Shown here piece after piece: positions 134-22,433 of a stretch of DNA of 36,768 bases. Within the stretch, counting starts at the first letter, position 1. Every line of letters starts with the position of its first letter. The notes beneath the pieces are model-generated. The model saw only the letters and a list, made by a program, of their open reading frames with translations, did not search any database and was not told the DNA's origin. The stretch comes from an uncultured Acidobacteriota bacterium (lineage in GTDB: Bacteria; Acidobacteriota; Thermoanaerobaculia; Multivoradales; SZUA-115). Position numbers and translations under genes: made by a program. The stretch lies in contig CALMKX010000013.1 in NCBI GenBank assembly GCA_937867335.1, positions 1 through 36,768 of the forward strand. Reading direction: 5' to 3'.

Positions 134-234
134 CAGTGCGCGGATGTGTGGTATCGCTGTGTCGAATCGGCTGGTATCAACCCCTTTAGCGCGCGACGCT
201 TGGGCGGCCAAGCCCGCGGCATCTGGCGGACATC

Positions 235-1400: not shown

Positions 1401-1459
1401 CTGGTTCTCCTCGGAGTTCCGGCAACCAAGTGTCCCTGTCGGCTTCGGCCGTTCCCGTG

Positions 1460-1490: not shown

Positions 1491-1531
1491 GATTCTCGGG
1501 CCTCCCGCCGGCCAGAGCCAGGAGCCGGGCC

Positions 1532-5014: not shown

Positions 5015-5982
5015 GTGGCTGAGGCGAGGCGGGCTTCCACCAGGGCTCCCAGCCGGTAACCGGCGAGCGCGATCGCTGGCCTGGCCAGAGCGAGAGCTCG
5101 TTTCTGGTAGGTCGCGGGAGGCGCCTGGTTGCGAAGGAGCTCGGGTGGGTAGAGCTCCCGCTTCGCGATCTCGGCGCTCGCTTCGGCCCACTCCTCGAAG
5201 GCCTCGACGGGCTGCCCCGAGGCCCCGGCCTGGCGGGGATGAGCCCGTTCCAGCTCGCGCGCCAGGCGATCGACGAATCGGCTGGCACCTAGCCACCAAG
5301 GCTTCGGGTTCTGCTGGGTCAGCAGGCTGTCCCAGAAGAAATGCAGGTTGCTGGGCCGGCTCTCGCCGGGTGGAACGCCGAGCAGGAAGTCGTTGCCCCC
5401 GCGGTCCCCTTTGGGCTCGGAGGAGGTGACCCGCGCGCTGGTGTGGAGGGGCTGGTGGAGATCGCCCACCAGATGGAGAATCCATGCCAAGGCCAGTCCA
5501 CGCTCCCGGTCCGGGCGGCTGCGGTCCCCCAGGAGGGCCGCCAGCCGGCCGAGGGCCTCCACCACGTTCTCCGGTGCCGGTTTGAGGTCCGGCCGGGCGA
5601 CCGGCGGCCCCCCAGCTGCCCCCGATTCCCAGAAGAAGTTGATGTAGTGCCAGCTCGGGCGGTCGAACACCGGGTTGCCCCGGGCGAGGTCCGGCCAGAT
5701 GGCGGCCTGTTCCCAGAGCGCCTGCCCGCAACGTTCCGGGCCACGGCAAGAGGGGGCCTTGAGCTCGGCTTCCTCGGGCACCGCTTCGAGCAGTCGCACG
5801 GCCTCCTGCCGGGTCGGCTCGGAAAGCTGATCCCAGGCGATCTTGGCCACGACTTTGTGCCCGAGGTCGTCCCAAGCTCGGAGGGGGTAGCCGCCGGCGG
5901 CAAGGGCGAGCAGAAGTCCGGCGACCTTGGCGCTGCGCCGGCTCCTGTGGCGCGGTTGCCCGCAGAGAGGAGATTGATACAC
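4999..5982 (-). CDS. S1/P1-type zinc nuclease, exported
   Basis: This predicted secreted single-strand nuclease and 3'-nucleotidase has three zinc ions. After an Arg-rich n-region and a hydrophobic run, the mature protein should begin at Trp in WDDLGH. That supplies the family's W1 and H6 ligands. Other ligands visible are Asp in WPDLARG, His in WHYINFF, the HLVGDLHQPLH cluster (equivalents of H116, D120 and H126 in P1) and NLHFFWD (H149, D153), so the active site is complete. From GTG at 5982 the product is about 327 aa. An ATG at 6021 would add 13 residues, and neither start has a strong ribosome site. It is convergent with metH, overlapping it by 16 bases, and divergent from the carboxypeptidase gene. 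Its 3' part contains one copy of the 17-bp repeat. Confidence 0.88.
   Translation of the reverse strand: MYQSPLCGQPRHRSRRSAKVAGLLLALAAGGYPLRAWDDLGHKVVAKIAWDQLSEPTRQEAVRLLEAVPEEAELKAPSCRGPERCGQALWEQAAIWPDLARGNPVFDRPSWHYINFFWESGAAGGPPVARPDLKPAPENVVEALGRLAALLGDRSRPDRERGLALAWILHLVGDLHQPLHTSARVTSSEPKGDRGGNDFLLGVPPGESRPSNLHFFWDSLLTQQNPKPWWLGASRFVDRLARELERAHPRQAGASGQPVEAFEEWAEASAEIAKRELYPPELLRNQAPPATYQKRALALARPAIALAGYRLGALVEARLASATQTAK
5274..5290 (-). repeat. 17-bp dispersed motif, copy 1 (exact)
   Basis: On the minus strand this reads AGGTGCCAGCCGATTCG, an exact copy. It lies in the nuclease gene and encodes GASRF within the product. Confidence 0.8.
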
Positions 5983-6042
5983 TGCGGCCCCATTCCCATC
6001 GAGCGGAGCTGTGCCGTTCATCCACCCGGAGCTGGAATTGCC

Positions 6043-7596
6043 ATGACACGAAGAGGCCGTCTCGGTTTGGCTGCTGTTGCGGGCATCTCGATCTCGCTGC
6101 TCCTGCCGGCCGATCTTCCGGCGGAGGAAAACCCACCGCAGGCCACGGAGGGCAAGGCGGCATCGGCCGAGTTCCATCCACCTCAGCCGGAAGAGAAGCT
6201 CTCGGTCACCCATCACACCGCCACCCTGGGCGGTCGAAAGCTCAGCTATACCGCCACCGCCGGGCAGTACTTGCTGCGAACCGAGGAAGGCAAACCGCGG
6301 GCAAGCGTCTTTTTCGTGGCCTACACCCTCGACGGTGTGGCCGAGGGGATGAAGCGGCCGGTCACTTTCAGCTTCAACGGCGGCCCGGGAGCGCCGGCTC
6401 TTTGGGTTCACCTCGGGGCGTTCGGCCCCAAGAAGGTGCGCTTGACCGACGAGGGAATGCCGATCGCGCCCCCGGGTGAGCTGGTGGACAACGAGTACTC
6501 CTTGCTGCCGGCCACGGATCTGGTGTTCATCGATCCGGTTTCGACCGGTTTTTCGCGCGCCGTGCCCGGCGAAGCGGAAAAACAATTCCATGGCTACAAG
6601 GAAGATATCGAATCGGTGGGGGAATTCATACGGCTGTGGGTAAGCCGTAACAGTCGCTGGGGAAGCCCAAAATTCCTCGCCGGCGAGAGCTACGGCACCA
6701 CCCGCGCCGCGGGCCTCGCGAACTACTTGCAGTCCCGCTTCGGGATGTTCTTGAACGGGGTGGTGCTGATCTCCTCGGTGCTCAACTGGCAGCATCACCA
6801 GTTCGACGCCGGCAACGACATGCCCTACTTGATCTTCCTGCCCTCCTACGCCGCGGCGGCCTGGTATCACAAACGCCTGCCGCCGGAGCTTTCCGGGGAC
6901 CTCGAGAAAACCCTCGCCGAAGTGGAGCAATTCACTCTCACGGACTACGCGCTCGCGCTGCTGGCCGGGGACGCGCTCGCCCCGGCGCGGCGGCGGGAGG
7001 TCGCCGAGCGGGTCGCGCGCTACACCGGCTTGTCGGTGGATTATGTGGAGCGCAGCAACTTGCGAATCGAGATCAACCGCTTCACCAAGGAGCTGTTGCG
7101 CGGCCAGGCTCGAACCATTGGCAGGCTGGACGCGCGCTTCCTGGGCTACGACCGCGACAGCGTGGGTGAAGTGCCGGACTTCGACCCTGCCTTGATCTCG
7201 GTAGTGCAGGGCTTCGTCACCTTGTTCAACGACTACGTGCGCCGCGAACTCGGCTTCGAGAGCGATCTACCGTACGAGTACCTGGCGGCTCGTGTTCGCC
7301 CTTGGAGCTTCGCGGAGTTCCAGAACCAGTACCTGAACGTGGGCGAGGATCTGCGCCAGGCCATGGTGCAGAATCACTCGCTCAAGGTGCTCTTCGCCGC
7401 CGGCTACTACGACTTTGCGACGCCCTATTTCGACGCCAAGTTCACCTCGGCCCATCTCGGCCTGCCGCCGGAGATCGCGCGCAATGTGGAGACCGTGACG
7501 TTCGAGAGCGGGCACATGATGTACATCCGCCAAGCCGACCACCAGAAGCTCCATCAGGCGGTGGTGGACTTCCTGGCCAAGGCGGTGGGACGCTAG
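6043..7596 (+). CDS. Serine carboxypeptidase-like peptidase, family S10, exported
   Basis: This is a 517-aa alpha/beta-hydrolase peptidase that would remove C-terminal residues from peptides outside the cytoplasm. An N-terminal signal sequence (about 1-27, Arg-rich then hydrophobic) is followed by the S10 core. That core contains the oxyanion segment FNGGPG at about 111-116, the nucleophile S216 in GESYGT, the acid D457 in GYYDFATP and the base H491 in SGHMMY. All three catalytic residues are present. The start at 6043 fits the signal peptide; the frame is open further upstream, but that part overlaps the divergent nuclease gene. The gene ends in a stem-loop shared with the convergent YHS gene. 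Bacterial S10 proteins of this type are common in acidobacterial and related genomes (known). The substrate is unknown. Confidence 0.92.
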   Translation: MTRRGRLGLAAVAGISISLLLPADLPAEENPPQATEGKAASAEFHPPQPEEKLSVTHHTATLGGRKLSYTATAGQYLLRTEEGKPRASVFFVAYTLDGVAEGMKRPVTFSFNGGPGAPALWVHLGAFGPKKVRLTDEGMPIAPPGELVDNEYSLLPATDLVFIDPVSTGFSRAVPGEAEKQFHGYKEDIESVGEFIRLWVSRNSRWGSPKFLAGESYGTTRAAGLANYLQSRFGMFLNGVVLISSVLNWQHHQFDAGNDMPYLIFLPSYAAAAWYHKRLPPELSGDLEKTLAEVEQFTLTDYALALLAGDALAPARRREVAERVARYTGLSVDYVERSNLRIEINRFTKELLRGQARTIGRLDARFLGYDRDSVGEVPDFDPALISVVQGFVTLFNDYVRRELGFESDLPYEYLAARVRPWSFAEFQNQYLNVGEDLRQAMVQNHSLKVLFAAGYYDFATPYFDAKFTSAHLGLPPEIARNVETVTFESGHMMYIRQADHQKLHQAVVDFLAKAVGR

Positions 7597-7630
7597 CCGG
7601 CGGGCTGGGCCCGCCGGCAGGCCGCTAGCG
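7591..7630. terminator. Bidirectional stem-loop between convergent genes
   Basis: GCCGGCGGGC (7596-7605) and GCCCGCCGGC (7609-7618) form a perfect 10-bp stem with a 3-base loop. An outer CGCTAGC (7591-7597) / GCTAGCG (7624-7630) pair includes both stop codons. There is no T-tract, so it may act as a Rho-assisted or mRNA-stabilising end for both genes. Confidence 0.6.
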
Positions 7631-8086
7631 CTTGACGATCTGCGGCCAGTTCTGGTCGGCGCTCGCGATGTAGCTGGCCATGTTCTTCAGCCATTCCTCC
7701 TGGATCTTGCGGTTGTAGTTCAGGTAGAGCTTGCCGTCGACAATCTTCCAGGCCTGGGGATCGATGCCGGCGGTCGAGCCTTTGGCCACCGCGTAGGCGC
7801 AGTAGCCGCCGTACTGGGGCGCGTACTTCTCGGGCTCTTTGGCGAAGGCGTCTCGGTGGTCTGCGGAAGCGAAGCGCCAGGTCGCCCCCTGCCAGGAAAA
7901 CACGAACTCCTTCGAGCCCTCGACGGGTTTGCCGTCGGTGAAGTAGGCGACGGGGTCGTAGCCCTGCAGAGCCACGCCACCGAAGGTGGTCTTGTTGATC
8001 GGGTCGACGGCATAGACAGTACCGGCGAGAGCCAGGGCGAACAGGGCGGCGAGGGCGAGCGAGCGGTAGAAGCGGGGTCGGATCAT
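7625..8086 (-). CDS. YHS domain-containing protein, exported
   Basis: This 153-aa protein starts with a clear signal peptide (residues 1-26, ending VYA). A YHS domain follows, with GYDPVAYF at about 42-49, a central FSWQGATWRFAS strand pair and YGGYCAYAVAKG, which holds the single Cys. The length and layout match the YHS-containing (seleno)protein family of periplasmic proteins, thought to bind metals; the exact role is not settled. I chose ATG at 8086 over the longer frame from 8167 because it gives a clean signal peptide and has AAGGAG upstream (12 bases away, somewhat far). It converges on the carboxypeptidase gene and is divergent from the glycosylase gene. Confidence 0.88.
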   Translation of the reverse strand: MIRPRFYRSLALAALFALALAGTVYAVDPINKTTFGGVALQGYDPVAYFTDGKPVEGSKEFVFSWQGATWRFASADHRDAFAKEPEKYAPQYGGYCAYAVAKGSTAGIDPQAWKIVDGKLYLNYNRKIQEEWLKNMASYIASADQNWPQIVKR

Positions 8087-8209
8087 GGTGGCAGGAATCT
8101 CCTTGTGGGTCGGGTAAGCGAGAGGCTTGGAGCCTCTTGGATGCAACAAACGGCCTCCACGTTTCATGCCAGCCGCCTCATGGAGCAGGGCTAGAATTCC
8201 GGTGCCCTG

Positions 8210-8839
8210 ATGAGCCAGTTCGCCGCCGACACACTCGCTACCTTGCCGCCGAGCTTCTTCGACCGGCCGGCGAGCGAGGTGGCTCGGGCTCTCCTCGGCC
8301 GATACCTGGTACGGGAGCTCGAGGGCGAGCGGCTGGTGCTACGCGTGGTCGAGACCGAGGCCTACCTCGGCATGGAGGATCGCGCAAGCCACGCCTGGGC
8401 TGGGAGGCGAACCCCGCGCAACGAGAGCCTGTACCTGCCGCCCGGCCACGCCTACGTGTATTTCATCTACGGCATGCACTTCTGCCTGAACGTGACGACG
8501 GGACCTGTGGGGGCTGGAGGGGCAGTGCTCTTCCGAGCCGGTGAGCCGCTCCTGGGTGAGGAGACGATGGCCCGACTGCGGGGCCTTGTGGGTCGGCCGA
8601 AGCCGGGCGCGGTCGCCGGCGGGCCTGGGAAGCTGGCGCGGGCCTTGGGGGTGGATCGAGCACTGGATGGGTCGAGGCTCGCCTGCGGTGAGCTCTGGCT
8701 GGCCGAGGGGAGCGAGGTGCCAGCCGAACAGCTCGTGGTGGGGCCGCGAGTGGGGATCGACTACGCCGGCGAGGCGGTAGGTTGGCCGCTGAGGTTCGCG
8801 GAGAGGGCCAACCGGCACGTCTCGCGACCCCGCCTCTGA
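8210..8839 (+). CDS. 3-methyladenine DNA glycosylase (AAG/MPG family)
   Basis: This base-excision repair enzyme removes alkylated purines. The 209-aa length is typical of bacterial AAG-type enzymes. Family motifs are clear: ALLGRYLVR at about 27-35, VETEAYLG at about 47-54 (containing the catalytic Glu), YVYFIYGMHFCLNV, and GGPGKLARALG in the C-terminal third. The start ATG at 8210 precedes a normal N-terminus. It is a single gene, divergent from the YHS gene and convergent with the glycosyltransferase gene. A degenerate copy of the 17-bp motif lies in its 3' part, where it encodes EVPAEQ. Confidence 0.95.
   Translation: MSQFAADTLATLPPSFFDRPASEVARALLGRYLVRELEGERLVLRVVETEAYLGMEDRASHAWAGRRTPRNESLYLPPGHAYVYFIYGMHFCLNVTTGPVGAGGAVLFRAGEPLLGEETMARLRGLVGRPKPGAVAGGPGKLARALGVDRALDGSRLACGELWLAEGSEVPAEQLVVGPRVGIDYAGEAVGWPLRFAERANRHVSRPRL
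8715..8731 (+). repeat. 17-bp dispersed motif, copy 2 (degenerate)
   Basis: It reads AGGTGCCAGCCGAACAG, identical to the consensus over the first 13 bases. It lies within the glycosylase coding region, so it could be an eroded copy or chance. Confidence 0.45.
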
Positions 8840-8853
8840 CCCCGACCTCCGCA

Positions 8854-8870
8854 AGGTGCCAGCCGATTCG
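8854..8870 (+). repeat. 17-bp dispersed motif, copy 3 (exact, intergenic)
   Basis: An exact AGGTGCCAGCCGATTCG lies in the 42-base gap between the convergent glycosylase and glycosyltransferase genes. It is the only copy outside coding DNA. Confidence 0.8.
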
Positions 8871-8881
8871 CCAGCGGCGAC

Positions 8882-10060
8882 TCAGCGGGAGCCGGCTCTT
8901 CGCTGGACTTCCTGATAGACCTTTTCCATCTGCTCGGCGACGGCTGCCCAGGTGAAGCGCCGGCGCACGAGCTCGGCGCCTCGCCGGCCCATCTGAGCCG
9001 CCTGGTCAGGATCCGCCAACAGGCCCCGCAGCGCGCGAGCCAGGGTTGACGAATCGGCTGGCACCACGAGACCCGCTCTCGCTTGGAGGACTTCCGAGGC
9101 CAGGCCGACTTCCGGACTGAGAACGACCGGTCGCCCCGCGCCCATCGCCTCCAGCACGACGTTGCCGAAGTTCTCCGAAAGGGACGGCAGGACGAGCGCC
9201 GCGCAGCGGGCCAGGAGGGCGGCCTTGTCGGCCCCCGACACCGGTCCGGGGAGGCGTAGCCTGTGGGCCACGCCAAGGCTCTGGGCTTGGCGGCTCAAGG
9301 CTGGCGCCAGCCCTTCTTCGTCGTTGCCGGCGAGGACCAGGGTGCCGTCTCCAAGCTCCGCCAGGGCGGCGATCACCCGGTCGAGCCCCTTTTTCCAGGA
9401 GATCCGACCGAGACAGAGGAAGAACGGGCCCAGGCGAACGAGTTCGTCTACGGCGGGAGAGAGCGCGGCATCGGGACGGTCCTCGAGCTCGGCCAAGTCG
9501 ATGCCGTTGGGCACCACGAAGAGCTCCGGCAGGTGCCAGCCGAATCGTCGGGCTTCGGCCGCTTCGAGCTCGCTGGTCACATGGAGGCCGGCGGCACGCT
9601 CGAGGAGAGGCCGGTCCACCGCGGCGAGCCACAACCGCTTGCGCCATCGTCCCCGCTGGCGGATCAGGTCTTGGACCAGCATGCCCCGCGGGGCCACCAG
9701 GTAGGGGACCCGCGCCAGCCGGGCGGCACGGCCGGCCGCGGCGGGAGGCCAGAGAAAGAGAGAGTGGAGGTGGGCGACATCCTGCCGAGGCATCTCCTGG
9801 GCGAGGGCCGCGGCCATCGTGGGGGAGCGGTAGAGCCGCCGAGAGAGGCGCGTGGGGAAATAGCGGACCGCAACGCCGTCGAGGTCGACCGGCCGGGCGA
9901 GTGGAACCTCGAGGTCTTCGTGCGCATGGACGTTGGTGGTGAAGACGGAGACTTCGTGGCCCCTCGCCACCAGCGCTTTGGCCAGACCGTGGATGGCGAA
10001 GATCGGCCCGCCGTGCCGCCAGGCCGGCAAATAAGTCGGGACGACGTGGAGGATTCGCAA
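8882..10060 (-). CDS. Glycosyltransferase, family 4 type (GT-B fold)
   Basis: This 392-aa protein starts with MRILHVVPTYLPAWRHGGP, the glycine-containing loop of a GT4 N-terminal Rossmann domain. The C-terminal domain begins around FFLCLGRISWKKGLDRVI. The nucleotide-sugar binding segment LPSLSENFGNVVLEAMGAGR carries the family's E-x7-E pattern. It probably adds a sugar to an exopolysaccharide, lipopolysaccharide or glycolipid on the cytoplasmic face of the membrane; donor and acceptor cannot be told. It is the last of three same-strand genes (permease, map, this gene), 29 bases after map. Two copies of the 17-bp repeat lie inside it in opposite orientations, encoding VPADSS and FGWHLP. Confidence 0.9.
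   Translation of the reverse strand: MRILHVVPTYLPAWRHGGPIFAIHGLAKALVARGHEVSVFTTNVHAHEDLEVPLARPVDLDGVAVRYFPTRLSRRLYRSPTMAAALAQEMPRQDVAHLHSLFLWPPAAAGRAARLARVPYLVAPRGMLVQDLIRQRGRWRKRLWLAAVDRPLLERAAGLHVTSELEAAEARRFGWHLPELFVVPNGIDLAELEDRPDAALSPAVDELVRLGPFFLCLGRISWKKGLDRVIAALAELGDGTLVLAGNDEEGLAPALSRQAQSLGVAHRLRLPGPVSGADKAALLARCAALVLPSLSENFGNVVLEAMGAGRPVVLSPEVGLASEVLQARAGLVVPADSSTLARALRGLLADPDQAAQMGRRGAELVRRRFTWAAVAEQMEKVYQEVQRRAGSR
9050..9066 (-). repeat. 17-bp dispersed motif, copy 4 (16/17)
   Basis: On the minus strand it reads TGGTGCCAGCCGATTCG, one mismatch at the first base. It lies in the glycosyltransferase gene. Confidence 0.75.
9531..9547 (+). repeat. 17-bp dispersed motif, copy 5 (16/17)
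   Basis: It reads AGGTGCCAGCCGAATCG, one mismatch. It lies in the same glycosyltransferase gene as copy 4, in the opposite orientation and a different codon phase. Confidence 0.75.
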
Positions 10061-10089
10061 TCGGGCCTCTCGGGGCCAGGGCTCGCGGG

Positions 10090-10839
10090 CTAGGCGCCGA
10101 GGGCGGTCAGCACGATCGGCTTGCCGCGAGTGATCACCAGGGTGTGCTCGTAGTGGGCGGAGAGGGCGCAGTCGGTGGTGCGCACGGTCCAGCCGTCGAG
10201 GGCCATGTACGAACCGCCCGAGCCGGCCGAGATGATCGGCTCGATGGTGAGCACCATGCCGGCCTCGAGTGGGCTATGGGCCTCGGGGTCGTCGAAGTTG
10301 GGTACCGTGGGCTCTTCGTGGATGCTGCGGCCGATGCCGTGGCCGCAGAGGGGAGGAATCACCGCGAAGCCCTGGCGCCGCACTTCGGTCTCCACGGTAC
10401 GCCCCACGCGGTTGACCGGGCTGCCGGCGCGGGCCACGGCGAGCGCGGCGGCGAACGCTGTGCGGGCGCAACTGGCGAGGCGCACGGCCTGGCTGGGGCG
10501 TGGCTCCACCACCACGGTACAGGCGGTGTCGGCCATGAAGCCGTCCTTCTCGACGGTGACATCCAGCTTGACGACGTCCCCCGGCTGGATCTTGCGTTCG
10601 CCCGGCACGCCGTGGACCACCTCGTCGTTCAAGCTGATGCAGGTTGCGGCGGGGAAGCGGTACACCAACTCGGGAGCGGAGCGGGCGCCCTCGCGCTCGA
10701 GCACTCCGCGGGCCAGGGCGTCGAGCTCAGCGGTGGCGATTCCCGGCTGTACGGCTCGGCGCATCACCTCGAGGGTCTCCGCGGCGATCCGCCCGGCGCG
10801 CTTGAGCCCAGAGAGCTCGGCTTCGGAACGTACGGTCAC
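10090..10839 (-). CDS. map: Methionine aminopeptidase, type I
   Basis: It removes the initiator methionine from nascent proteins using two metal ions. The protein has 249 aa, as expected for a type I enzyme without extensions. The residues that define the family are visible: H76 (VVHGVP), metal ligands D93 (VKLDVT), D104 (GFMADTA), H167 (LCGHGIGRSIHEEP), E200 (LTIEPI) and E231 (HYEHTL). The start codon is GTG at 10839. It sits between the permease and the glycosyltransferase on the same strand with short gaps (41 and 29 bases). The three are probably co-transcribed, although the functions are unrelated. Confidence 0.96.
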   Translation of the reverse strand: MTVRSEAELSGLKRAGRIAAETLEVMRRAVQPGIATAELDALARGVLEREGARSAPELVYRFPAATCISLNDEVVHGVPGERKIQPGDVVKLDVTVEKDGFMADTACTVVVEPRPSQAVRLASCARTAFAAALAVARAGSPVNRVGRTVETEVRRQGFAVIPPLCGHGIGRSIHEEPTVPNFDDPEAHSPLEAGMVLTIEPIISAGSGGSYMALDGWTVRTTDCALSAHYEHTLVITRGKPIVLTALGA

Positions 10840-10880
10840 CGGGCGAGCGTATCAGAGCCCTCCGAGCGCGGAGCGACCCT

Positions 10881-13346
10881 TCATTCGCGACTCAGAAGGC
10901 GCGCCGGCTCGATCCGCGCAGCCCGCTGGGCCGGTCCATAGGCGGAGAGCAGGGCGGCCGCAGCGAGGGCCGCCGCCACCGTGGCGAGCGCCCAGGGCTC
11001 GTGGGCCCGGATGCCGAAGAGCTGGCTCTGCAGCAAACGCCCGGCCGCGAGAGCCCCGGCGAGGCCCAGGAGAAGGCCGCGGAGCACGAGCCGAGCGGCC
11101 TCGCCGAGAACGAGGTTGAGGGCTTGGCTGGGGTTGGAGCCCAGTGCCATGCGGAGGGCGATCTCCCGCGACCTCCGGGCTACCGAGTGAGCCACCACGC
11201 TGGCAGTACCGGCCGAGGCGAGGATCAGGCCGAACAGGCCGATCCATCCGCTCACCTGGGCGTTCAATTGCTCGGCCAACAGGGCTCTCTCGAGGTTTTC
11301 GTCGAGCGGTGCCACCTCGACGGTCGCGAGGCCTTGGGTGGAGGCCGCCATGGCTTCGTCGAGCGCGTGCACCAAGGCCGCCGAGTTGCCGCTCGCGCGT
11401 ACCAGCAGGCTGGCCCGTTTCCAGGGCCGCTGGGTCCAGGAGTAGTAGGCGAGGGGGCCGATCGGCGAGCGCAGATCGAGGTAGCGGGTGTCGGCCACCA
11501 CACCCACGATGCGATAAGGGCCGCGATCGTCGGGGCGGGGGCCGCCCACCACGGTCAAGGTCTGCCCCAGGGCGCCGCGGGGAAAGAACTTCTCGGCGAA
11601 GCGCCGGTTCACCACGGCCACCCGTTCGCTGTCCGCCCGATCCTCCGGGCCGAAGGTGCGGCCGGCGACCAGCGCTGCCCCCAGCGTCTCGAGGTAGCCA
11701 GGGCCGATCGCCGCTCCATTGACTTCGATCGGCTCGGTGTTTCCGGGCAGCAGGAGCTGGTCGCCGAAGGCACCGCCGTAGAGCGGCGGCTGTGCCACGA
11801 GCCCGGTAGAGCGCACTCCAGGCAGGATGCGCACTCGCTGGACCAGATCGTCCACGCAGCGGCTCCAGGCCTCCGCCGTGGCATTGGCCCCGGGGCCGGG
11901 CTGGCCGGCGAGGTAGAACGAGGCGAGATAGAGGGAGTGGGTGTCGAAGCCCGGGTCCACCCGCCGGAGCTCCACCAGGCTGGTGGTGAGCAGCAGGGCG
12001 CCCGTGAGGAGCAGGGTGGCAAGGGCGGTCTGGAGCACGACCAGGAAGGATGCCAGGCGGGATCTCGCTCCCGCAGCGAGGACCCCGGCGGCACTTCGCA
12101 GGGACGGCAGCAGCTTGCGCGCCGAGGCGGTCGCCAGAGGAGGCAGACTCAAGAGAACCGCCGTCATCATCGTCGCGGCCAGGGCGAAGAAAGCAACGCG
12201 GTCGTCGAACCGAAGGGCGATGACCTCCTCGCCGAAGTTTCCCCGGCCGACGGGAACCGAGTGCAGAGCCGGCTCGAGGAGCTGGATGCCGAGCCAGCCG
12301 AGTGCCGTTCCGAGCAGGCCGGCGAGGGTGGCCACCAGGGCCACCTCGGAGAGCAGGCTGCGCACGAGCGACCAGCGACCCGCCCCGAGGGCGGCGGCGA
12401 CCGCGAGCTCTCGCTGCCGCTCCAGGGCGCGGGCGAGCATCAGGGTTCCCGCGTTGGCGGAGGCGAGCAGAAGCACCAGCGCCACCACGGTGGAGACCAG
12501 GGCGGCGTGCAGGGTGAGGCTGCGGTCGGTGCCGGCGTCTTCGTCCTGGCTCACCAATCGGATCAGGCGCGGCTCGGCAAGGGGAGCTTGTTGATCGAGC
12601 CCTCGGGCCACGCCTGCGAGAAAGGCTGCCGCTCCTGCGCGGCTGGCTCCCGGGGCCAGCCGGCCGTAGACGTTTCCCAGGGTGACCGAGCGCTCGCTGA
12701 GCCCTCGAGCCACGTCCTGCCAGTGGGCGAAAGGCAGGTAGATCCCGAGCGGCAGGCCCGTTGCCGCGAAGCCCGGTGGGGCCACGCCCACCACGGTGTA
12801 GGAAAACTGCCCATCGAGCAGCACGCTGCGGCCGATCACCTGACGATCGCCGGCGAAACGGCGCTGCCAGAGCCGGTAGGAAATCACCACCGCCCGTGGA
12901 GCCTCTGCCGAGTCGTCCTCGAGGCTGAGCCAGCGGCCGAGATAGGGAGCCTTGCCCAGGAGGGAGAAGTAGTCGCCTCCCACCAGCCAACCCCATTCGA
13001 AGCGGGAATCCCCGCCGGGGGTGGCCAAGGCTGATGAGAAGACCCGCGCGACCGTGAGCTCCTCGAGAGGCGGCTTGTCCGAGGAGTGGAGGGCGCGCCG
13101 GTAGTCCTGCCAATCGGGGTAGGAGAGGCCCAGGTCCGGTTCCTTGGCCGAGGCCCCCTGGAGGCGGAAGACGCGCTCCGGCTCCGGCGCGTCGAGGCCT
13201 TCCCAGAGGAGTCTCGAGACATAGGCGAAAAGCACCACGTTGGCGGCGATTCCCAGGGCCAGGGTGCCTACCATCAGCACGGCGGTCAGGGGCCGATGGA
13301 GGAGGGTGCGTCCGGCTCTGCGGAGCTCACGCCCGAGGTTCGTCAT
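10881..13346 (-). CDS. Large MacB/FtsX-type ABC transporter permease, acidobacterial ADOP-like
   Basis: This is an 821-aa inner-membrane permease with the two-module layout of the long permeases abundant in Acidobacteria. There is an N-terminal MacB_PCD-type region after the first membrane segment (TAVLMVGTLALGIAANVVLF, about 21-40). A FtsX core with three helices lies around 285-420. A second periplasmic domain covers about 490-690, and a second FtsX core closes the protein. The FtsX-associated REIALRMALGSNPSQ segment is near the end. ATG at 13346 is chosen because GGAGGG lies 7 bases upstream; the longer frame to 13502 has no such support. No ATP-binding subunit is encoded nearby, so it is an orphan here. 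Family members are predicted macrolide, lipoprotein or peptide exporters; the substrate is unknown. Confidence 0.9.
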   Translation of the reverse strand: MTNLGRELRRAGRTLLHRPLTAVLMVGTLALGIAANVVLFAYVSRLLWEGLDAPEPERVFRLQGASAKEPDLGLSYPDWQDYRRALHSSDKPPLEELTVARVFSSALATPGGDSRFEWGWLVGGDYFSLLGKAPYLGRWLSLEDDSAEAPRAVVISYRLWQRRFAGDRQVIGRSVLLDGQFSYTVVGVAPPGFAATGLPLGIYLPFAHWQDVARGLSERSVTLGNVYGRLAPGASRAGAAAFLAGVARGLDQQAPLAEPRLIRLVSQDEDAGTDRSLTLHAALVSTVVALVLLLASANAGTLMLARALERQRELAVAAALGAGRWSLVRSLLSEVALVATLAGLLGTALGWLGIQLLEPALHSVPVGRGNFGEEVIALRFDDRVAFFALAATMMTAVLLSLPPLATASARKLLPSLRSAAGVLAAGARSRLASFLVVLQTALATLLLTGALLLTTSLVELRRVDPGFDTHSLYLASFYLAGQPGPGANATAEAWSRCVDDLVQRVRILPGVRSTGLVAQPPLYGGAFGDQLLLPGNTEPIEVNGAAIGPGYLETLGAALVAGRTFGPEDRADSERVAVVNRRFAEKFFPRGALGQTLTVVGGPRPDDRGPYRIVGVVADTRYLDLRSPIGPLAYYSWTQRPWKRASLLVRASGNSAALVHALDEAMAASTQGLATVEVAPLDENLERALLAEQLNAQVSGWIGLFGLILASAGTASVVAHSVARRSREIALRMALGSNPSQALNLVLGEAARLVLRGLLLGLAGALAAGRLLQSQLFGIRAHEPWALATVAAALAAAALLSAYGPAQRAARIEPARLLSRE

Positions 13347-14001
13347 GCCGCATCCCTCCCCGACGGGGTCGAAGTGCCCGGCGTCGTTGCCGCGCGTGGG
13401 TCGTCTCGAGCAGTCTACGGGCGGCAGGGCGGTGGTGTTGGGCGGGTCGTTCTTGGGTAGTTTCTCCCCCTGTGGGAGAATGGCCAGGTAGGAAACCGCC
13501 ATCGAGAAGGGTGCCGCAGGGTGTTCCGCGGACTCGTTCGGACGCCGGCCAGGCCTCGGGAAGCCCTGCTTTCGGCAGCCGAGGCCCGCCGCGCCGCACG
13601 CTGGTCAGGAGCTCCACGCTGCTTGTCGCTCATGGCATAGGCCTTGCTCTAGTGGCACGACGTTTCCGCTCAGTGCGTTCCCAGGAAGTGCTCCGTCGGA
13701 GCTGGGCGGCCACGACAACCCGCAGCTTCAGGCGCTCGAGTCCCCAGCCCGAGTGCCTTGCTAGCTGGTCTCTTTGCCGAGGGACCGAGAGAGCGCGAGG
13801 TGGAGGGACCTCGGGATCTCGGGCTCCGAAGTGAAGCGACGAATCGGCCTCAGCGGTAGCTTGCGGTCGGCGATCCCAAAGCTGGCCGTTCAAGTTACCG
13901 CTCTTTTTTTGCTTGGCTGCCGCCACCGTAGGCCTCTCCCCGTCCGCTCTCGACTGCCCTGACAAGCTGCTATGCTGGCCGGGACAAATGGAGGCTTTGC
14001 C
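13347..14001. other. 655-base divergent intergenic region
   Basis: It lies between the divergent permease and FG-GAP genes. The open frames in it have no ribosome site or recognisable protein and look like GC-rich noise. A small hairpin, TTCTCCC (13462-13468) with GGGAGAA (13474-13480) and a 5-base loop, sits about 115 bases upstream of the permease start and may be an operator. A run of seven T lies at about 13906-13912. TATGCT at 13970-13975 could be a -10 for the FG-GAP gene, but no good -35 accompanies it. I see no RNA gene or repeat. Confidence 0.4.
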
Positions 14002-15540
14002 ATGCACTCATTTCAAAGGGTCGGGTCCGCTCTCCTTTCCACGCTCCTGGCGGCTTCCGCGATGGCGCTGCCGGCCGTTGCTGGAACTCTCTCCGTGGTG
14101 AGCCACACGCCGGCCCGGAACTCGAGCACGGCGTTGCCGGGCACCACCATCGCTGTCACCTTCAATCTGCCGCTCAATACGGCTACGGTCACTGCCACGA
14201 GCTTTCGAGCCTACGGGCGCTGGAGCGGCCCGGCCTCCGGCGCCTTCGCTTTCAGCAACGCGAATCAGACGGTCACGCTCACTCCCAATCGGCCCTTCTC
14301 GGCCGGCGAAACGGTGTTCGTCAATCTGGCCAACACGCTTCAGGCCGCCGACGGCTCGCCCTTGAGGAGCGCCGGCTACGCCTTTCTGTTCGGCATCCGC
14401 GTGCTCGGCGGCAGCGCCGAGATGGTGGAGATCGACCAGCTATCGGTTCAGACCACGGCGAGCGCCACCCGGCTTTACGGCGGTTTCGCGGCCGACTTCG
14501 ACCACGATGGCTGGCTGGACCTCGCGGGGGTGAACGAGGTCTCGCACGACCTGCGGATCCTCTTCAACCGGGACGACGGCACCGGTCTCTTCAATCCAGT
14601 ACACCTGCCGGTGACGCCGATCGGTGTCGAGGCGAGTCCGAACGAGCCGGGGGACTTCGACAACGACGGCGAGGTAGACGCGGCGATCGTCAACGCTTCG
14701 GACGGCACGGTCTCGGTGGTGCTCGGCCACGGCGACGGTAGCTTCGATCCCCAGCAGGTTCTGACCGTGGGCAGCGGCCCCCACGGCATCGCGGTGCTGG
14801 ATGTCGACGGCGACGGCGACTGGGATGTGGTGACCGGCGGCTACAACTCGAACAACATGACCCTCTACCGCAACAACGGCAGTGGCGTTTTCGGCTCCTC
14901 CTCGAGCTTCGACGCCGGGGGCAACGGCGAGTGGCCGGTGGCGGCCGGAGACATGAACAACGACGGCATCACCGACCTGGTGGTGGGCACCGCCAACGAC
15001 GCCAAGGTCCACGTGCTGACCGGCAATGGCAACGGCACCTTCACCCACGCGAGCAGCGCTGCCTCCGGCGGCTTCACCTGGATGCTCGCTCTGGGCGATG
15101 TCAACGGCGACGGCAATCTGGACGTCTCGGTGGCCAACGGCGGCGACTCGAACGGCGGCATCCTCTTGGGCAACGGCGCCGGAGGCCTCGCCGCGGCCGT
15201 CACCTATGCGATCGGCGGCAGCGCCGTGGCCACGGACCTCGGCGACCTCGACGGCGATGGGGACCTCGACTGGGTGCTGTCGAGCTTCGGCGCCGCCCGC
15301 TGGTACTTCAAGCGCAACGGGGGCAACGGCACCTTCAGCGACCTGGGCGAGATCGCTGCGCCCCAATCCGGCTCCTGCGCCGTGCTGTTCGACGCCGACA
15401 ACGACGGCGACCTCGACGCCGCCCTCTTCGACGAGCTGGCGGACACCATCCAGGTGATCCGCAACCTGGGCGGCAACCCGGTCTTCGCCGACGGCTTCGA
15501 AACCGGCAACACCAGCGCCTGGGCAGCCCAGGTGCCGTAG
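14002..15540 (+). CDS. Secreted FG-GAP/VCBS repeat protein with Ig-like N-domain and DGFETGNTSAW tail
   Basis: This 512-aa protein starts with a signal peptide (about 1-28, ending AVAG). A Big_5-like Ig domain follows (about 29-135, SHTPARNSSTALPGTTIAVT onward), then about seven FG-GAP repeats with Ca-binding-like Asp loops, such as DFDHDGWLDL, DFDNDGEVDA, DVDGDGDWDV, DMNNDGITDL, DVNGDGNLDV, DLDGDGDLDW and DADNDGDLDA. These should form a seven-bladed propeller. The last 17 residues carry FADGFETGNTSAWAAQVP-type sequence, a short conserved-looking tail that may be a sorting signal (inference). ATG at 14002 is preferred over 13972 because GGAGG lies 8 bases upstream and the signal peptide begins there. 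It is probably an extracellular or cell-surface adhesion or binding protein. Confidence 0.85.
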   Translation: MHSFQRVGSALLSTLLAASAMALPAVAGTLSVVSHTPARNSSTALPGTTIAVTFNLPLNTATVTATSFRAYGRWSGPASGAFAFSNANQTVTLTPNRPFSAGETVFVNLANTLQAADGSPLRSAGYAFLFGIRVLGGSAEMVEIDQLSVQTTASATRLYGGFAADFDHDGWLDLAGVNEVSHDLRILFNRDDGTGLFNPVHLPVTPIGVEASPNEPGDFDNDGEVDAAIVNASDGTVSVVLGHGDGSFDPQQVLTVGSGPHGIAVLDVDGDGDWDVVTGGYNSNNMTLYRNNGSGVFGSSSSFDAGGNGEWPVAAGDMNNDGITDLVVGTANDAKVHVLTGNGNGTFTHASSAASGGFTWMLALGDVNGDGNLDVSVANGGDSNGGILLGNGAGGLAAAVTYAIGGSAVATDLGDLDGDGDLDWVLSSFGAARWYFKRNGGNGTFSDLGEIAAPQSGSCAVLFDADNDGDLDAALFDELADTIQVIRNLGGNPVFADGFETGNTSAWAAQVP

Positions 15541-15555
15541 ACGCTCCGATCAGCA

Positions 15556-15590
15556 GCTCCGGGGCGAGGCGCCTTGGCCCCGCCCGGAGC
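15556..15590. terminator. Stem-loop between convergent FG-GAP and sulfatase genes
   Basis: GCTCCGG (15556-15562) pairs perfectly with CCGGAGC (15584-15590). Further GC pairing (GGCG with CGCC and CCTTGG-region bases) extends the hairpin. There is no T-run. Its position 16 bases after one stop and 7 before the other suits a shared transcript end. Confidence 0.55.
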
Positions 15591-15596
15591 ACGGCC

Positions 15597-17609
15597 TCAG
15601 TCGCGTGTGGGCAGGATCTGCGCCTGGCTCTTGCAGATCTCCTTCCACTTGAGCGGGTGTTCCTTGAGATCCTGGATCCGATCGTCGACCATGATCTCCT
15701 TCATCGGCGACGTCGGCAGGAACGGCGGGTAGTCCACCAACACGCAGTAGAAGCGCTGAAACTCGCCACTGAACAGGTGCTGGGCCCAGAGGTGGCGGAT
15801 GTTGATGTTGTCGCTCTCTTTCGGGTCCTCCTGCAAGTTGAACATCCAGAGATAGGAAACCGGCAGGGTCACTCCGGAAAGCCCGCCGGCATAACCTTGA
15901 GAAAGCCCCACCGGCTCGGTGACGGCGACATGGGCCTTGAGCTCGTCCATGCGCACGGCGGCGAAGGTGGTGAGATACCAGTCGAGGTTGCTGCGCCGGC
16001 TGGACTCACCCTCCTTGGCGAGCAGGAACGAGGTTTGATCGATGCCGTAGACGTAGCGATTCTTGAGGAAATCCGCCAGCTCCTTGCCCACGCCGGGATT
16101 CTGCTCGGGATGAGCGTAGTCGAAGCCCGCCAGGGTGAGGGCCGTGGTGTAGAGGTCCGCTTGGTTGAAGATGCCGTCGGACTGGCGCCCTGCGTCGATC
16201 ATGCCCGGCCAGTAGGCGATGCCGGGAACCCGTACGCCGCCTTCCCAGGTATCGCCCTTGCCACCGCGGAAAGGCGTGTGGCCATGGGGCGGGATCTCGT
16301 CCTCGGGCCCGTTGTCCGAGCTCATGAAAACTAGGGTGCTCTCATCCTGGCCGGTTTCCTTGAGGGTCTTCATCAGCTGGCCGAGAATCTCATCCATCTC
16401 CACCGTGCAATCCGAGTAGATCGTTCGAGCGTAGGAAAGGCGCCGATCGCCCAGGTTGGGATAGTTGTCGAAATGGCAGCCGCGGGTGGCGTGGTAGAGG
16501 AACCAGGGCTCTCGGCTCCCGGCCATCTTGCGCAGGAAGTTGGTGGAGTAGTCCACCCAGACCTTGTCGAGGTCGGCGATGCTGATCTTCTTGCTTTCGT
16601 TCTCCGGTCGCACCCAGCAGTGGTTGGTGTTACCGCGATTCTTCTGCCCCTCGAGAGCCTTCGCTTCCCACGGAATGGTGATCTCGGCGAGGGCTTCGCA
16701 ACCCGGAGACTTGCGTTCGTCGTCTTTCGAGGTCTCGATCCTGGCCTGGACCTCCGCCGGCGGCTTGAGCTCGGTCGAGGCGTGGATCATGTAGTGGCTG
16801 AAGTGGTTGTTGTCCATGTAGGTGGTGCGCTCTTCGTCGCGCACCACCTCCGGGTTGTAGTACTGGTCGCGCCACTCGGTGTACATGTCGGAAACCGAGA
16901 GGAAGCCGAGATAGTCGTCGTAGCCGACATTCTGGGGCAGATTGGGAAGGTTTTCTCCCATATGCCATTTGCCCACGCCTTGAGTGCGGTAGCCCATCTT
17001 CTTGAGCAACCAGGGCAGGGTGATCGATTTTTCCGTGAGGCCGCCCGGGTCGCCGTACATCGGCGGGTAGAGCACGCCGTGGTGCACCGGCAGCTGGCCG
17101 GTGTGGATGGTGGCGCGGCTCGGCGAGCAGGTGGGTTGGGAGTAGGTGGAGGTCAACAGCAGGCCCTTCGCCGCGAGCTGATTGACATTCGGCGTGGCAG
17201 CGCCGTAGGCCAGGCCGCCGCCGTAGGGGCCGAAGTCCCCCCAGCCCATGTCGTCCACCAGGAAAATCAGGATATTCGGCTTGCGGCAGCCCTTCTCCCG
17301 CGCGGGGTCGAAGCGGCAGGACTTGCAGGAGCGGGCCAGCACCTCGGCGCAGAAGCCCTTGGCCTGCAGCCGGTTGATCGATTCCTGGATCTGCCCGGGG
17401 TGAGGAATCGCGGGCTCCATGTTCGGCGCCGGCGCCTCGAGCAGTTTCGCTTTCACCAGGTAGCGGTTCTGCTCCGCGGCCTGGCGATAGTCGAAGCCGC
17501 CCCAGCTTGCGCCGCCGGCCTCGTCGGCTGCGAGGAGCGGCGAGCCGCCCAGGGCGAGGAGGAACAGGGTAGCCAGGGCGGCTACCGGAATGAACCGTCT
17601 CCGTCTCAT
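15597..17609 (-). CDS. Exported sulfatase (formylglycine-dependent, arylsulfatase type)
   Basis: This 670-aa sulfate-ester hydrolase has a signal peptide (about 1-28, ending LLAA). The sulfatase core starts at about 110 with PNILIFLVDDMGWGDF, which holds the metal ligands D119 and D120. The formylglycine signature CSPSRATIHTG begins at C161, a Cys-type site that needs a maturase. KWHMGE at about 218-223 and SSDNGPEDE supply other active-site residues. Between signal and core lies an unusual 80-residue segment with four Cys (C87, C95, C98, C108, including CKSC), which is not a haem motif. ATG at 17609 has AAGGAG 8 bases upstream. It follows the multihaem gene by 39 bases on the same strand, so the two are probably co-transcribed. 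Substrate unknown. Confidence 0.92.
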   Translation of the reverse strand: MRRRRFIPVAALATLFLLALGGSPLLAADEAGGASWGGFDYRQAAEQNRYLVKAKLLEAPAPNMEPAIPHPGQIQESINRLQAKGFCAEVLARSCKSCRFDPAREKGCRKPNILIFLVDDMGWGDFGPYGGGLAYGAATPNVNQLAAKGLLLTSTYSQPTCSPSRATIHTGQLPVHHGVLYPPMYGDPGGLTEKSITLPWLLKKMGYRTQGVGKWHMGENLPNLPQNVGYDDYLGFLSVSDMYTEWRDQYYNPEVVRDEERTTYMDNNHFSHYMIHASTELKPPAEVQARIETSKDDERKSPGCEALAEITIPWEAKALEGQKNRGNTNHCWVRPENESKKISIADLDKVWVDYSTNFLRKMAGSREPWFLYHATRGCHFDNYPNLGDRRLSYARTIYSDCTVEMDEILGQLMKTLKETGQDESTLVFMSSDNGPEDEIPPHGHTPFRGGKGDTWEGGVRVPGIAYWPGMIDAGRQSDGIFNQADLYTTALTLAGFDYAHPEQNPGVGKELADFLKNRYVYGIDQTSFLLAKEGESSRRSNLDWYLTTFAAVRMDELKAHVAVTEPVGLSQGYAGGLSGVTLPVSYLWMFNLQEDPKESDNINIRHLWAQHLFSGEFQRFYCVLVDYPPFLPTSPMKEIMVDDRIQDLKEHPLKWKEICKSQAQILPTRD

Positions 17610-17648
17610 CGGGATCTCCTTTCGGGAGGGAATGCCGGCAGGCCGGCG

Positions 17649-19904
17649 TCAAGGATCAGAGCGTTCGAGCGAGACCAGCGCGAGGGCGAGCTCGCGGTGG
17701 TTGGGAGAGCGGGAGAGGGCGGCCCGGAGTACGGAGCGGGCCTCGCCAGGGCGGCCGGCCGCCTCGAGGGTGAGCGCCCAGGCATAGGCGTGGGAGGGCT
17801 CCTCGGGGGCGAGCCGAGCGGCCTGGGCGAGCTCCGCGAGAGCTCCTGGGAGGTCGCCGCGGCGTACGCGGGCGAGGCCGAGGGCATGGTGGGCCTCGGC
17901 GCTGCGAGGTGCCAGCCGATTCGCGGAGAGGAGCTCCTGCTCCGCCTCGGAGTCGCGGCCGACGCGGCGCAGGATCTCCGCCAGGTTGAGGCGGGCCGGC
18001 ACGAAGCCCGAGTCGAGGGAGAGGGCGCGCCGGCTGGCCGCCTCGGCAGCTTCGAGATTGCCGAGCTGGGCCTCGAGCGAGCTGAGGTTGAGCTGGCTCT
18101 CCGGTCGTTCCGAGCGGGCGGCGAGGGCGGAGCGGAGTTCGTCCAGCGCCCTGTGGCCCAGCGCCCCCCAGCCCAGCGCGCTCGGTAGCCGTTCCGGATG
18201 CTCGGCAAAGAAATCGGAGAGCGCGGCGAGCTGCCGGCCGGCTTCCAGGCGCACCGTGAGGGAGGGATCCCCGAGGCCCTGTTCCACCAGCTCGAGCCGC
18301 GCCTCGGGCTCGAGGGCCTGCGCTCCTACCAGGGCGGCTTCCCGCACCATCGGCTCGGCATCGGCGAGGCTGGTCCTCAAGCTCTCGCCGTCCGTGCCCC
18401 CGGGAAAGCCGCCCAGCAGCACGAGCGCCGTCGCCCGGGCGATCGCCGGCACGGCGGGATCGGCGGCGAGGGCTCCGAGGGCCGGCGGGGCATCCGGGCG
18501 ACCTTCTCGGCCGGCAGCGATCACTTCGCCCCAATGAGGAGGCGGCGTGCGGCCGGTCCAGCTGGAGATGGCCTGGGCCGCCCAGGCGGCGGATCGCTCG
18601 GTGTGGCAGCCGTTGCAGGCGTTGGGCGTGCCTAGGCGGGCGGAGAGATCCGGCCGGGGGACGCGCAGGCTGTGATCGCGGCGAGGGTCGACCACCAGGT
18701 AGTTGCGGGCCGGCATGTGGCAACTCGTGCAGCGCGCCGCCGAGGTGCCAGCCGAATGGTGATGATGGGCCGGGGAGTCGAACCGTTCGGCCGAATGGCA
18801 GCGCGCGCAGAGGGCGTTGCCCTCGGCGCGAAGGGTCAGGCGGTGGGGATCGTGGCAGTCGCTGCACACCACCCCGGCGCCGTGCATCTTGCTCTGGACG
18901 AAGGAGCCGTACTCGAAGACCTCGTCCTCGATCTGGCCGTCCGGAAAATAGAGCCCGGCCTCCAGGCTCACGGGCCGGTAGGCGTCGAAGAGGCCCGAGC
19001 CGGGCTCAGCGTCGGGGGTGATCGGATCCCGCCGGGAATGGCAGCGGGCGCAGGTTTCGAGCTCGGCCGAAGAGGAAGGCGGAGAGGTTCGGCGGCCGTT
19101 GCCGGTGGCCGGGTCTACCCCCCAGGCGGAGCTGCCACTGCCTCGCAAGGCACGCAAGAACCCCCGGCCGGGGGATGCCGGAGCCTTCCCCTCGGCCCAG
19201 GCCAAGTGCCCCGAAGCCGGCCCGTGGCAGGCCTCGCAGGAGACGTCGATCTCGGCGAAGCGGGTCTCGAAGCGATCCTCGGCCGGCAGGTAGCCCTTGT
19301 CGAGGCCGGTCGAGTGGCAGTCCGCGCACATCGAGTTCCAGTTCTGGTCTCGGCCGGTCCAGTGCAGCGAGTCGCCGGGCTTCAGGAGTTGCGCGGGGTA
19401 GAGCGAGTACCAGCGCTGGCCGCCGGCGGCAGCCGGTCGCGAGTCCCAGGCGACCGAGAAGGCCTGGTAGCGGCCGCCGGGCAGCTCGAGTAGGTACTGC
19501 TGGAGGGGTTCGACGCCGAAGGTGTAGGCCACCCGGAACTCGCCCACGCGGCTGCCCGGGCCTGCGGTGCGTACGAAGAAATCCTTGCCGCGGCGGAAGA
19601 ACTGCGAGGTGCCAGCCGATTCGTTGAAGGTGGTGCCGGAGAAGTCCCCCAGCACCGTCTGCGCCGTCGCCTCCTGCATCGCGAGGTCGTGGTGCGAGCC
19701 TTGCCAGGCCGCGAGCTCGGCCGGGTGGCAGGCGGCGCAGGTGGCCCGGCCTACGTAGCGAGGAGGCTCGGCGGCGCCGGCGAGAGGCGTCGCTGCCGCG
19801 CTACCAGGCCGATCGGCAAGCGGGCTGCAGCCGAGGATCGCGAGCACCCATCCCACCCCGAGCCCCAACCGGACCCAGCCTCCAAGCGAACAAACCTCTG
19901 CCAT
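17649..19904 (-). CDS. Octahaem cytochrome c lipoprotein with HEAT-like and TPR C-terminal region
   Basis: This 751-aa protein has a short hydrophobic N-terminus ending AILGC (C26), a likely lipobox. Eight CxxCH haem-c motifs follow, at C56, C193, C223, C285, C348, C366, C392 and C430. The spacing is like the cytochrome c554-type multihaem proteins that are fused to TPRs in Acidobacteria and Planctomycetes. Residues about 460-580 look like HEAT repeats (Ala/Leu-rich, EAALVGAQAL), and about 580-745 are TPRs (NLEAAEAASRRALSLD). It probably transfers electrons in the periplasm while the TPR part docks a partner. ATG at 19904 has GGAGGG 6 bases upstream. Probably in one transcript with the downstream sulfatase. 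It contains three copies of the 17-bp repeat, which encode ANRLAP, SAGTSA and SAGTSQ. Confidence 0.9.
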   Translation of the reverse strand: MAEVCSLGGWVRLGLGVGWVLAILGCSPLADRPGSAAATPLAGAAEPPRYVGRATCAACHPAELAAWQGSHHDLAMQEATAQTVLGDFSGTTFNESAGTSQFFRRGKDFFVRTAGPGSRVGEFRVAYTFGVEPLQQYLLELPGGRYQAFSVAWDSRPAAAGGQRWYSLYPAQLLKPGDSLHWTGRDQNWNSMCADCHSTGLDKGYLPAEDRFETRFAEIDVSCEACHGPASGHLAWAEGKAPASPGRGFLRALRGSGSSAWGVDPATGNGRRTSPPSSSAELETCARCHSRRDPITPDAEPGSGLFDAYRPVSLEAGLYFPDGQIEDEVFEYGSFVQSKMHGAGVVCSDCHDPHRLTLRAEGNALCARCHSAERFDSPAHHHHSAGTSAARCTSCHMPARNYLVVDPRRDHSLRVPRPDLSARLGTPNACNGCHTERSAAWAAQAISSWTGRTPPPHWGEVIAAGREGRPDAPPALGALAADPAVPAIARATALVLLGGFPGGTDGESLRTSLADAEPMVREAALVGAQALEPEARLELVEQGLGDPSLTVRLEAGRQLAALSDFFAEHPERLPSALGWGALGHRALDELRSALAARSERPESQLNLSSLEAQLGNLEAAEAASRRALSLDSGFVPARLNLAEILRRVGRDSEAEQELLSANRLAPRSAEAHHALGLARVRRGDLPGALAELAQAARLAPEEPSHAYAWALTLEAAGRPGEARSVLRAALSRSPNHRELALALVSLERSDP
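17907..17923 (+). repeat. 17-bp dispersed motif, copy 6 (exact)
   Basis: An exact AGGTGCCAGCCGATTCG on the plus strand, antisense to the cytochrome gene, in the TPR part. Confidence 0.8.
18743..18759 (+). repeat. 17-bp dispersed motif, copy 7 (15/17)
   Basis: It reads AGGTGCCAGCCGAATGG, two mismatches, within the haem part of the cytochrome gene. Confidence 0.6.
19607..19623 (+). repeat. 17-bp dispersed motif, copy 8 (exact)
   Basis: An exact AGGTGCCAGCCGATTCG in the cytochrome gene near its 5' end. It is the last copy in the window; none was seen from 19.7 kb to the right end. Confidence 0.8.
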
Positions 19905-21582: not shown

Positions 21583-21702
21583 GAACCCTCCTGGACCGTG
21601 GACGCCGAGCTGCCCATCCGTCCGCGCTACAGCAAGAAGACACAGCTCCCGCCCCGAGGTTTAGCCACTTTGTGCTCAACCTTCTCACCGAGCCTGTGTC
21701 CA

Positions 21703-21741
21703 TAAACGCGAGGCCAAGCAAGCCATCGGTTCTCGCGTTTA
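21703..21741. promoter_or_regulatory. Perfect 10-bp inverted repeat in the leader of the chaperone-GTPase operon
   Basis: TAAACGCGAG (21703-21712) and CTCGCGTTTA (21732-21741) are perfect inverted repeats 19 bases apart. They end 17 bases before the GrpE-like start and 6 before its GGAGG ribosome site. They lie between two divergent transcripts, one of which encodes an HTH protein. It could be a two-site operator or an mRNA hairpin in the leader. The sequence is not CIRCE (TTAGCACTC-N9-GAGTGCTAA), although the position before grpE-dnaK recalls it. Confidence 0.6.
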
Positions 21742-21758
21742 GAGACGGAGGAAAGAAA

Positions 21759-22433
21759 ATGGAGCTGCAATCCGACGAGTGGGTGAGCCCGCCTGCGGAG
21801 ACTTCACAGGAGCAGTCCGAGCTAGAGCAAGCGGTGGCCGGCGACCAGCCGCTGTCCGTCGAAGCTGATGCCGTTGGGTCGGTCCCCGAGGGCCAGCCCG
21901 ACTGGGAGCCGCTGGCTGTGCGAGTGGAAGGCGGCCTTGCCGAACTTCGGGAGCTCTTTGCTACCAGGCTCGCATACGACCAGTTCAAAGAGCAGCAGAT
22001 CGACCGGCTTCACTCAGAGCTGCAGATCTACAAGGAGGGCTTCCTCCGTCGCGTCCTGCAGCCCCTCGTAATGGGCCTGATCCGGCTCCATGACGATCTA
22101 AGCCGGCATGCCGAGGCGGTCGCGGCTCGCGGACCGGAAGAGCTCTCTCGTGAACGCGTTCTGTCCGATCTAGATGGGTTCCGTGAAGATGTCGAGATCC
22201 TTCTGGAACAGCATGGCGTGACGCGATACCAGGTAGGTACTGAGGCCTTCGACAGCCGTCGTCAGATTGCTGCGCGAACACGACCCACTTCAGATGCTGC
22301 TCAGGTTGGCTGTGTGGCCGAGCGTCTGAGGCCGGGCTTCGAGCTGGCAGAGTTTCAGCTGCAGAAGGAACGAGTCGTGGTCTTTGTTGCACAACCCACG
22401 CAGAACGAGACGGTGGAAAAGGAGACTCCATGA
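21759..22433 (+). CDS. GrpE-like nucleotide exchange factor, divergent
   Basis: This 224-aa protein has an acidic, disordered N-terminus (about 1-55) and a helical region with FKEQQIDRLHSELQIYKEGF (about 78-97). A GrpE-like core then reads LLEQHGVTRYQVGTEAFDS and ends in a beta-wing-like FELAEFQLQKERVVVFVAQ. Canonical GrpE proteins have GxxFDPxxHEA at the equivalent place; here it is GTEAFDSRRQIA, so the family is recognisable but divergent. It should exchange nucleotide on the Hsp70 encoded next. ATG at 21759 has GGAGG 6 bases upstream; the longer frame from 21672 would run through the inverted repeat. It overlaps the Hsp70 start by 4 bases (ATGA), implying translational coupling. Confidence 0.8.
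   Translation: MELQSDEWVSPPAETSQEQSELEQAVAGDQPLSVEADAVGSVPEGQPDWEPLAVRVEGGLAELRELFATRLAYDQFKEQQIDRLHSELQIYKEGFLRRVLQPLVMGLIRLHDDLSRHAEAVAARGPEELSRERVLSDLDGFREDVEILLEQHGVTRYQVGTEAFDSRRQIAARTRPTSDAAQVGCVAERLRPGFELAEFQLQKERVVVFVAQPTQNETVEKETP

Follow-up and report, generated by a model that had tools for sequence, protein, structure and literature searches.

The locus raises the question of why a 17-bp word, AGGTGCCAGCCGATTCG, recurs in and between the genes of one short stretch of DNA. This stretch, here called the window (36,768 bp), makes up all of contig C13, one of 391 in a 5.56-Mb assembly (genome G000). It contains four exact copies of the word and four to six near copies; sorted by mismatches, four copies are exact, two have one mismatch, one has two and three have three. 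Chance predicts 0.21 matches in the window at up to three mismatches, and 0 of 100 dinucleotide shuffles of the window reached ten. The copies are as follows.

5274..5290, minus strand: exact word, intergenic between metH (1373-5014) and a Peptidase_S10-like gene (5341-7596)
8715..8731, plus strand: degenerate copy with three mismatches, near the 3′ end of an MPG DNA glycosylase gene, encoding EVPAEQ
8854..8870, plus strand: exact word in the intergenic gap 8839-8882
9050..9066, minus strand: one-mismatch copy within a glycosyltransferase gene (8882-10060, minus strand)
9531..9547, plus strand: one-mismatch copy within the same glycosyltransferase gene (8882-10060)
17907..17923, plus strand: exact word within a TPR/multihaem cytochrome gene (17649-19904, minus strand)
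18743..18759, plus strand: two-mismatch copy within the same cytochrome gene (17649-19904)
19607..19623, plus strand: exact word within the same cytochrome gene (17649-19904)
163..179, minus strand: weak copy TGATACCAGCCGATTCG with three mismatches, near the contig start
35469: weak copy with three mismatches

A first-pass annotation of this DNA had listed eight of these copies, from 5274 to 19607, and all eight are present with the mismatches given above (four exact, one each at 9050 and 9531, two at 18743 and three at 8715); six lie in predicted genes with Pfam matches, and those at 5274 and 8854 are intergenic. Its statements that the count is far beyond chance, that both strands and several reading frames are used and that the constraint acts on DNA were borne out. 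The word had also been described as absent from 19.7 kb onward, which holds except for the weak copy at 35469, missing from that list. Copy 8715 reads as ordinary coding sequence and may be of chance origin, and those at 163 and 35469 may likewise be chance matches. The reverse complement of the word contains TGGCAC, as in a sigma-54 −24 box; inspection of the flanks by eye found the −12 element absent at the expected spacing, and this candidate was rejected.

Across the whole genome we found ten exact 17-mers and none of the reversed control pattern; six of the ten lie off C13, so the word is not confined to this contig. At up to three mismatches there were 110 matches against 20 for the reversed control, and an 11-bp core, AGGTGCCAGCC, occurred 87 times in the 5.56 Mb (control, 4). 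The core is common to all dialects of the word, and a tail of six bases varies by contig: GATTCG on C13 and C229 (with single copies on C29, C319 and C378), TCTTGG on C61, C71, C124 and C177, GATTGT on C283, GATTGG on C179, and GATGGG on C55 and C77. Further tail variants occur in relatives. The element is 17-18 bp long with the core GGTGCC-A/C-x-CC, and its logo is sharply bounded at positions 0 and 17, with almost unconserved flanks. REPs are predominantly extragenic; by a crude ORF caller, 30 copies of the word were intergenic and 41 within predicted ORFs at 86% coding, a 4-5-fold enrichment between genes. Copies occur in either orientation. In several genomes tandem copies are spaced 24-46 bp apart; over all arrays the spacing is 24-57 bp. 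One short tandem array in G000 (C374:2028-2086) consists of three cores 24 bp apart. Two loci of the relative G018 (L220 9330-9408 and L227 7099-7604) carry inverted word pairs with a partly common spacer (CAACTCACTGAG...), resembling REPIN doublets.

These counts bear on the trivial reading, that the word is an assembly artefact or a chance similarity among coding sequences. Copy 8715 and a G018 match (L223:9870) do read as ordinary VPAE/D coding; however, several contigs and other MAGs, named records among them, contain exact 17-mers, with reversed controls near zero. As an account of the word this reading can hardly be right, although some degenerate copies, 8715 for one, probably did arise by chance or as ordinary coding sequence, unlike the exact ones.

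They also bear on the candidate functions proposed in the first-pass annotation, among which were an uptake sequence, a HIP1-like word and a chromosome-organising signal. As with DUS and USS, the words are short and may sit inside genes, and they occur on both strands at a frequency far above chance. Uptake words come as one or a few per genome and are abundant and genome-wide, whereas the words described here are few, local and, as detailed below, specific to individual genes. The 87 cores in 5.56 Mb are clustered on few contigs and end in differing tails, Y1 loci within a single genome have different words, and most relatives have zero matches to the 16- and 17-mers. Among named records, the relatives with the word are Acidobacteria/Thermoanaerobaculia MAGs. 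Because the copies are few, clustered and spelled in regional dialects private to their loci, all three functions are contradicted and we regard them as very improbable; a recombination-type signal, also among the candidates originally proposed, pointed the right way. A literature search for the core gave unrelated papers only, among the matches listed.

The decisive association is with HUH/Y1 transposase-like genes and sits outside the window, in which tblastn found no Y1 gene. The genome has three Y1_Tnp genes (PF01797), on C229, C61 and C283, and all three contigs are among the ten of 391 with at least three cores (p = 1e-5). Together they make up 2.5% of the genome and hold 18 of the 87 cores; when cores were merged into events separated by over 2 kb, the Y1 contigs held 8 of 59 events (p = 1e-4). 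On C229, the Y1 gene has a copy in the GATTCG dialect of the window 59 bp ahead of its start codon. Counting against the pattern, the C283 gene has upstream of it a TCTTGG copy in the opposite orientation, although most copies on that contig end in GATTGT. Beside the C229 gene, near the contig end (L119 18589-19479), we noted a glutamine synthetase-like ORF whose first residues are nucleotide-sugar epimerase-like (MVFLIGGRGLVGSAF), which may reflect a misassembly.

We examined the association around 46 related Y1 genes of relatives and of this genome, over up to 20 kb each, and took 20 stretches from relatives as controls. Near Y1 genes the most repeated complex 12-mer reached up to 15 copies, against 2-4 in controls with one at 7 (p = 2e-4, 46 versus 20). 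Many Y1 genes are surrounded by a 10-20 kb cloud of a private word of 14-17 bp, mostly in intergenic gaps and as short arrays plus single copies, and many have a copy of their own word ahead of the start codon, at 50-110 bp and oriented with the gene. In 17 of the 46 genes, a GGTGCC word of that orientation was present within 150 bp upstream (p = 4e-7), while upstream words on the opposite strand were at background (6 of 46, p = 0.26). The broad enrichment of GGTGCC near Y1 genes was modest (1.99 versus 1.68 in controls, p = 0.03). About half of the 46 Y1 windows had no clear private word, so the association is common, not universal.

Private words are specific to their locus even within one genome. 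The relative G009 has three Y1 loci with three words, present in 14, 9 and 4 copies at home and in 0-1 copies at the other Y1 loci, and in G017 the corresponding counts were 8 versus 0 and 5 versus 0. At up to two mismatches, private words gave 115 matches in twelve Y1 windows and none in same-genome control stretches, which covered 10 of the 12 windows. Word distance was correlated with Y1 protein distance over 22 words, a minority of which were taken from the surrounding cloud instead of the upstream copy (Mantel r = 0.34, p = 0.0014). Within this Thermoanaerobaculia order (Acidobacteriota), dialects of the word track genes for HUH/Y1 transposase-like proteins of about 300 aa. In G029 (L312 and L313), Y1 genes belonging to this clade also have nearby palindromic words in repeated copies, such as GGTGCCTGGCAC and GGTGCCCGGCAC, so some clade members may have more classical REP-like repeats.

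The local clusters, together with a spelling of its own for each Y1 gene, suggest that the enzymes or their ancestors copied words into nearby DNA. We consider it probable that the word is one of a REP-like population of short elements associated with a clade of long HUH/Y1 (IS200/RAYT-related) proteins in Thermoanaerobaculia, copying included. On this view, each Y1 protein would recognise its own word and would nick and rejoin single-stranded DNA there, a reaction that could seed new copies preferentially in nearby DNA; copies inside the genes of the window would have been written over existing sequence, perhaps via annealing of a short single strand. We infer the Y1-driven copying, its local bias and the overwriting step from the patterns described here.

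The window itself is probably either a neighbour of the C229 Y1 gene, separated from it by an assembly gap, or a cloud that has lost its Y1 gene. The ends of C13 and C229 do not overlap, and the synteny of metH and TDO in relatives was uninformative about the adjacency of the two contigs, as metH and TDO never shared a contig there. An orphan cloud, whose cognate Y1 gene was lost or which spread in trans from C229, would be compatible with the REP-like explanation. It is in keeping with a window that has no Y1 gene and with other Y1-less word clusters in G000 (C179, C71 and C177) and in G018, but an assembly of 391 contigs hides the neighbourhood, and we hold this origin to be possible though doubtful.

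The Y1 proteins score above the PF01797 cut-off. Full-length members are 301-326 aa long (n = 45), and both HUH histidines (HxH), a Trp and the Tyr are kept in 45 of 45, with a conserved C-terminal part. The tyrosine motif of the clade is YxLxxGxKExLV (e.g. YLLSHGPKEGLV and YLLSHGCKEGLV), not Y---NP. A sequence search of PDB gave no meaningful match. An AlphaFold2 model, built with three sequences in the input and of modest confidence (pLDDT 74.5), had as its best fold match 4er8, the E. coli REP-associated tyrosine transposase, followed by IS200-type transposases. Whereas IS200/IS605 elements are multiple near-identical transposase copies with subterminal hairpins, the three Y1 proteins of G000 are 52-62% identical to one another. 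In L055 a partial Y1 C-terminal fragment (99-299) lies 3 kb from a full Y1 gene (3397-4305), which points to a duplicated and decaying copy, or to a second gene truncated where the contig ends.

The system behaves like REP/RAYT, yet several features that define REP/RAYT are missing from it. The two have in common a HUH/Tyr Y1 protein, a low transposase copy number, a repeat family of its own for each gene, repeats beside the gene (for many, not all, of the 46), covariation of protein and repeat, and 4er8 as the best fold. Every RAYT likewise comes with a repeat family of its own, and the RAYT gene may have REPIN clusters next to it (PMC2817692, PMC3116915, PMC6006769). In contrast, the GTAG/GTGG 5′ foot of REP was not seen in the word logos, and the word has no stable hairpin where REPs form a palindrome or stem-loop: among eight word variants folded as DNA, only those with GGTGCCAGCCACTT and GGTGCCAGGGGAAT did somewhat better than shuffles, and covariation between base −1 and base 15 was weak (p = 0.001). 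REPs are genome-wide, usually in more than 100 copies, while the words here lie mostly within ~10-20 kb, with 87 cores in G000. Scores against the NCBIfam model REP_Tyr_transpos (NF047646) were 50.5-54.2 bits for three proteins, below the curated cut-off of 80 bits.

The proteins can also be compared with the described TnpAY1 classes. Class 2 has the motif Y---NP (PMC6006769), as opposed to YxLxxGxKExLV in a protein of ~300 aa with a conserved C-terminal part. Subclasses 2.1 and 2.3 (TIRYT) resemble the present clade in that their proteins are long, are extended at the C terminus, carry an NH[YF]H motif and are of low copy number; they differ in the Y motif and in the private word cloud, as no REP-like sequences were found near these long subclasses in the TnpAY1 survey (PMC6006769). 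Class 3, from Planctomycetes and Acidobacteria, shares the phylum and has atypical associated sequences, which reach hundreds of copies in Solibacter (PMC6006769), but its proteins are of ~178 aa with a Y----Q motif, and its structures have a CnGA foot. Long Y1 proteins account for some of the larger groups within the RAYT relatives.

A further difference concerns the copies inside genes. Published intragenic REPs are described as insertions (PMC3733652, PMC6006769), mostly on the strength of alignment to shorter homologues (PMC3733652). Compared with four to six orthologous proteins, the 17 bases of the word at 9050, 9531, 17907 and 19607 fill 17 columns, with no insertion. Site 9050 is ungapped against five of six orthologues, the sixth being 3 nt shorter there; site 9531 is ungapped against six, and sites 17907 and 19607 against four each. 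Orthologous DNA agrees with the word at 17907 in only 4-6 of 17 bases, which leaves some 12 bases changed and the length the same. At the glycosyltransferase sites it matches 5-11 of 17, against a mean near 5, and site 18743 is in a loop of variable length among orthologues. These alignments suggest that the four in-gene copies of the window at 9050, 9531, 17907 and 19607 replaced ancestral sequence; since the orthologues are just 41-61% identical, a compensated indel could also account for them. The stretches around two intergenic copies in G018, in contrast, have no counterpart in congeneric genomes.

Copies without insertion would also be expected if the words were binding sites of a local DNA-binding protein, possibly a domesticated Y1 regulator, arising by point mutation with selection or biased conversion and without any copying. 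The operator-like placing of a copy ahead of many Y1 genes, oriented with the gene and at a fairly constant 50-110 bp, fits such sites, as do the glycosyltransferase-site orthologues that already match 5-11 of 17 bases. Tandem arrays at 24-57-bp spacing, the occurrence of copies in either orientation and the expanded intergenic stretches of G018 are, on the other hand, copying-like, and at 17907 some 12 of 17 bases depart from the orthologues; on balance we think binding sites alone improbable and retain the REP-like population. A stronger version of it, in which this HUH/Y1 class writes its own word nearby by base replacement and so forms a local halo in and between genes, is speculative and we would not expect it to hold. 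If true, it would amount to short-range, sequence-templated overwriting, undescribed in REP systems, and overwritten in-gene copies would represent a new spreading route for a tiny element that leaves reading frames intact. The many clade genes with their own local word constitute natural protein-word pairs for probing recognition, function and cis action of these domesticated-looking enzymes.

Elsewhere in the window (21672-32593), GrpE/Hsp70 chaperone-like genes precede genes for zinc-ribbon, GAP1-N2/GAP1-M and double-GTPase (DO-GTPase2) proteins, in a GTPase-type operon such as Pfam lists under the name GTPase-associated proteins.
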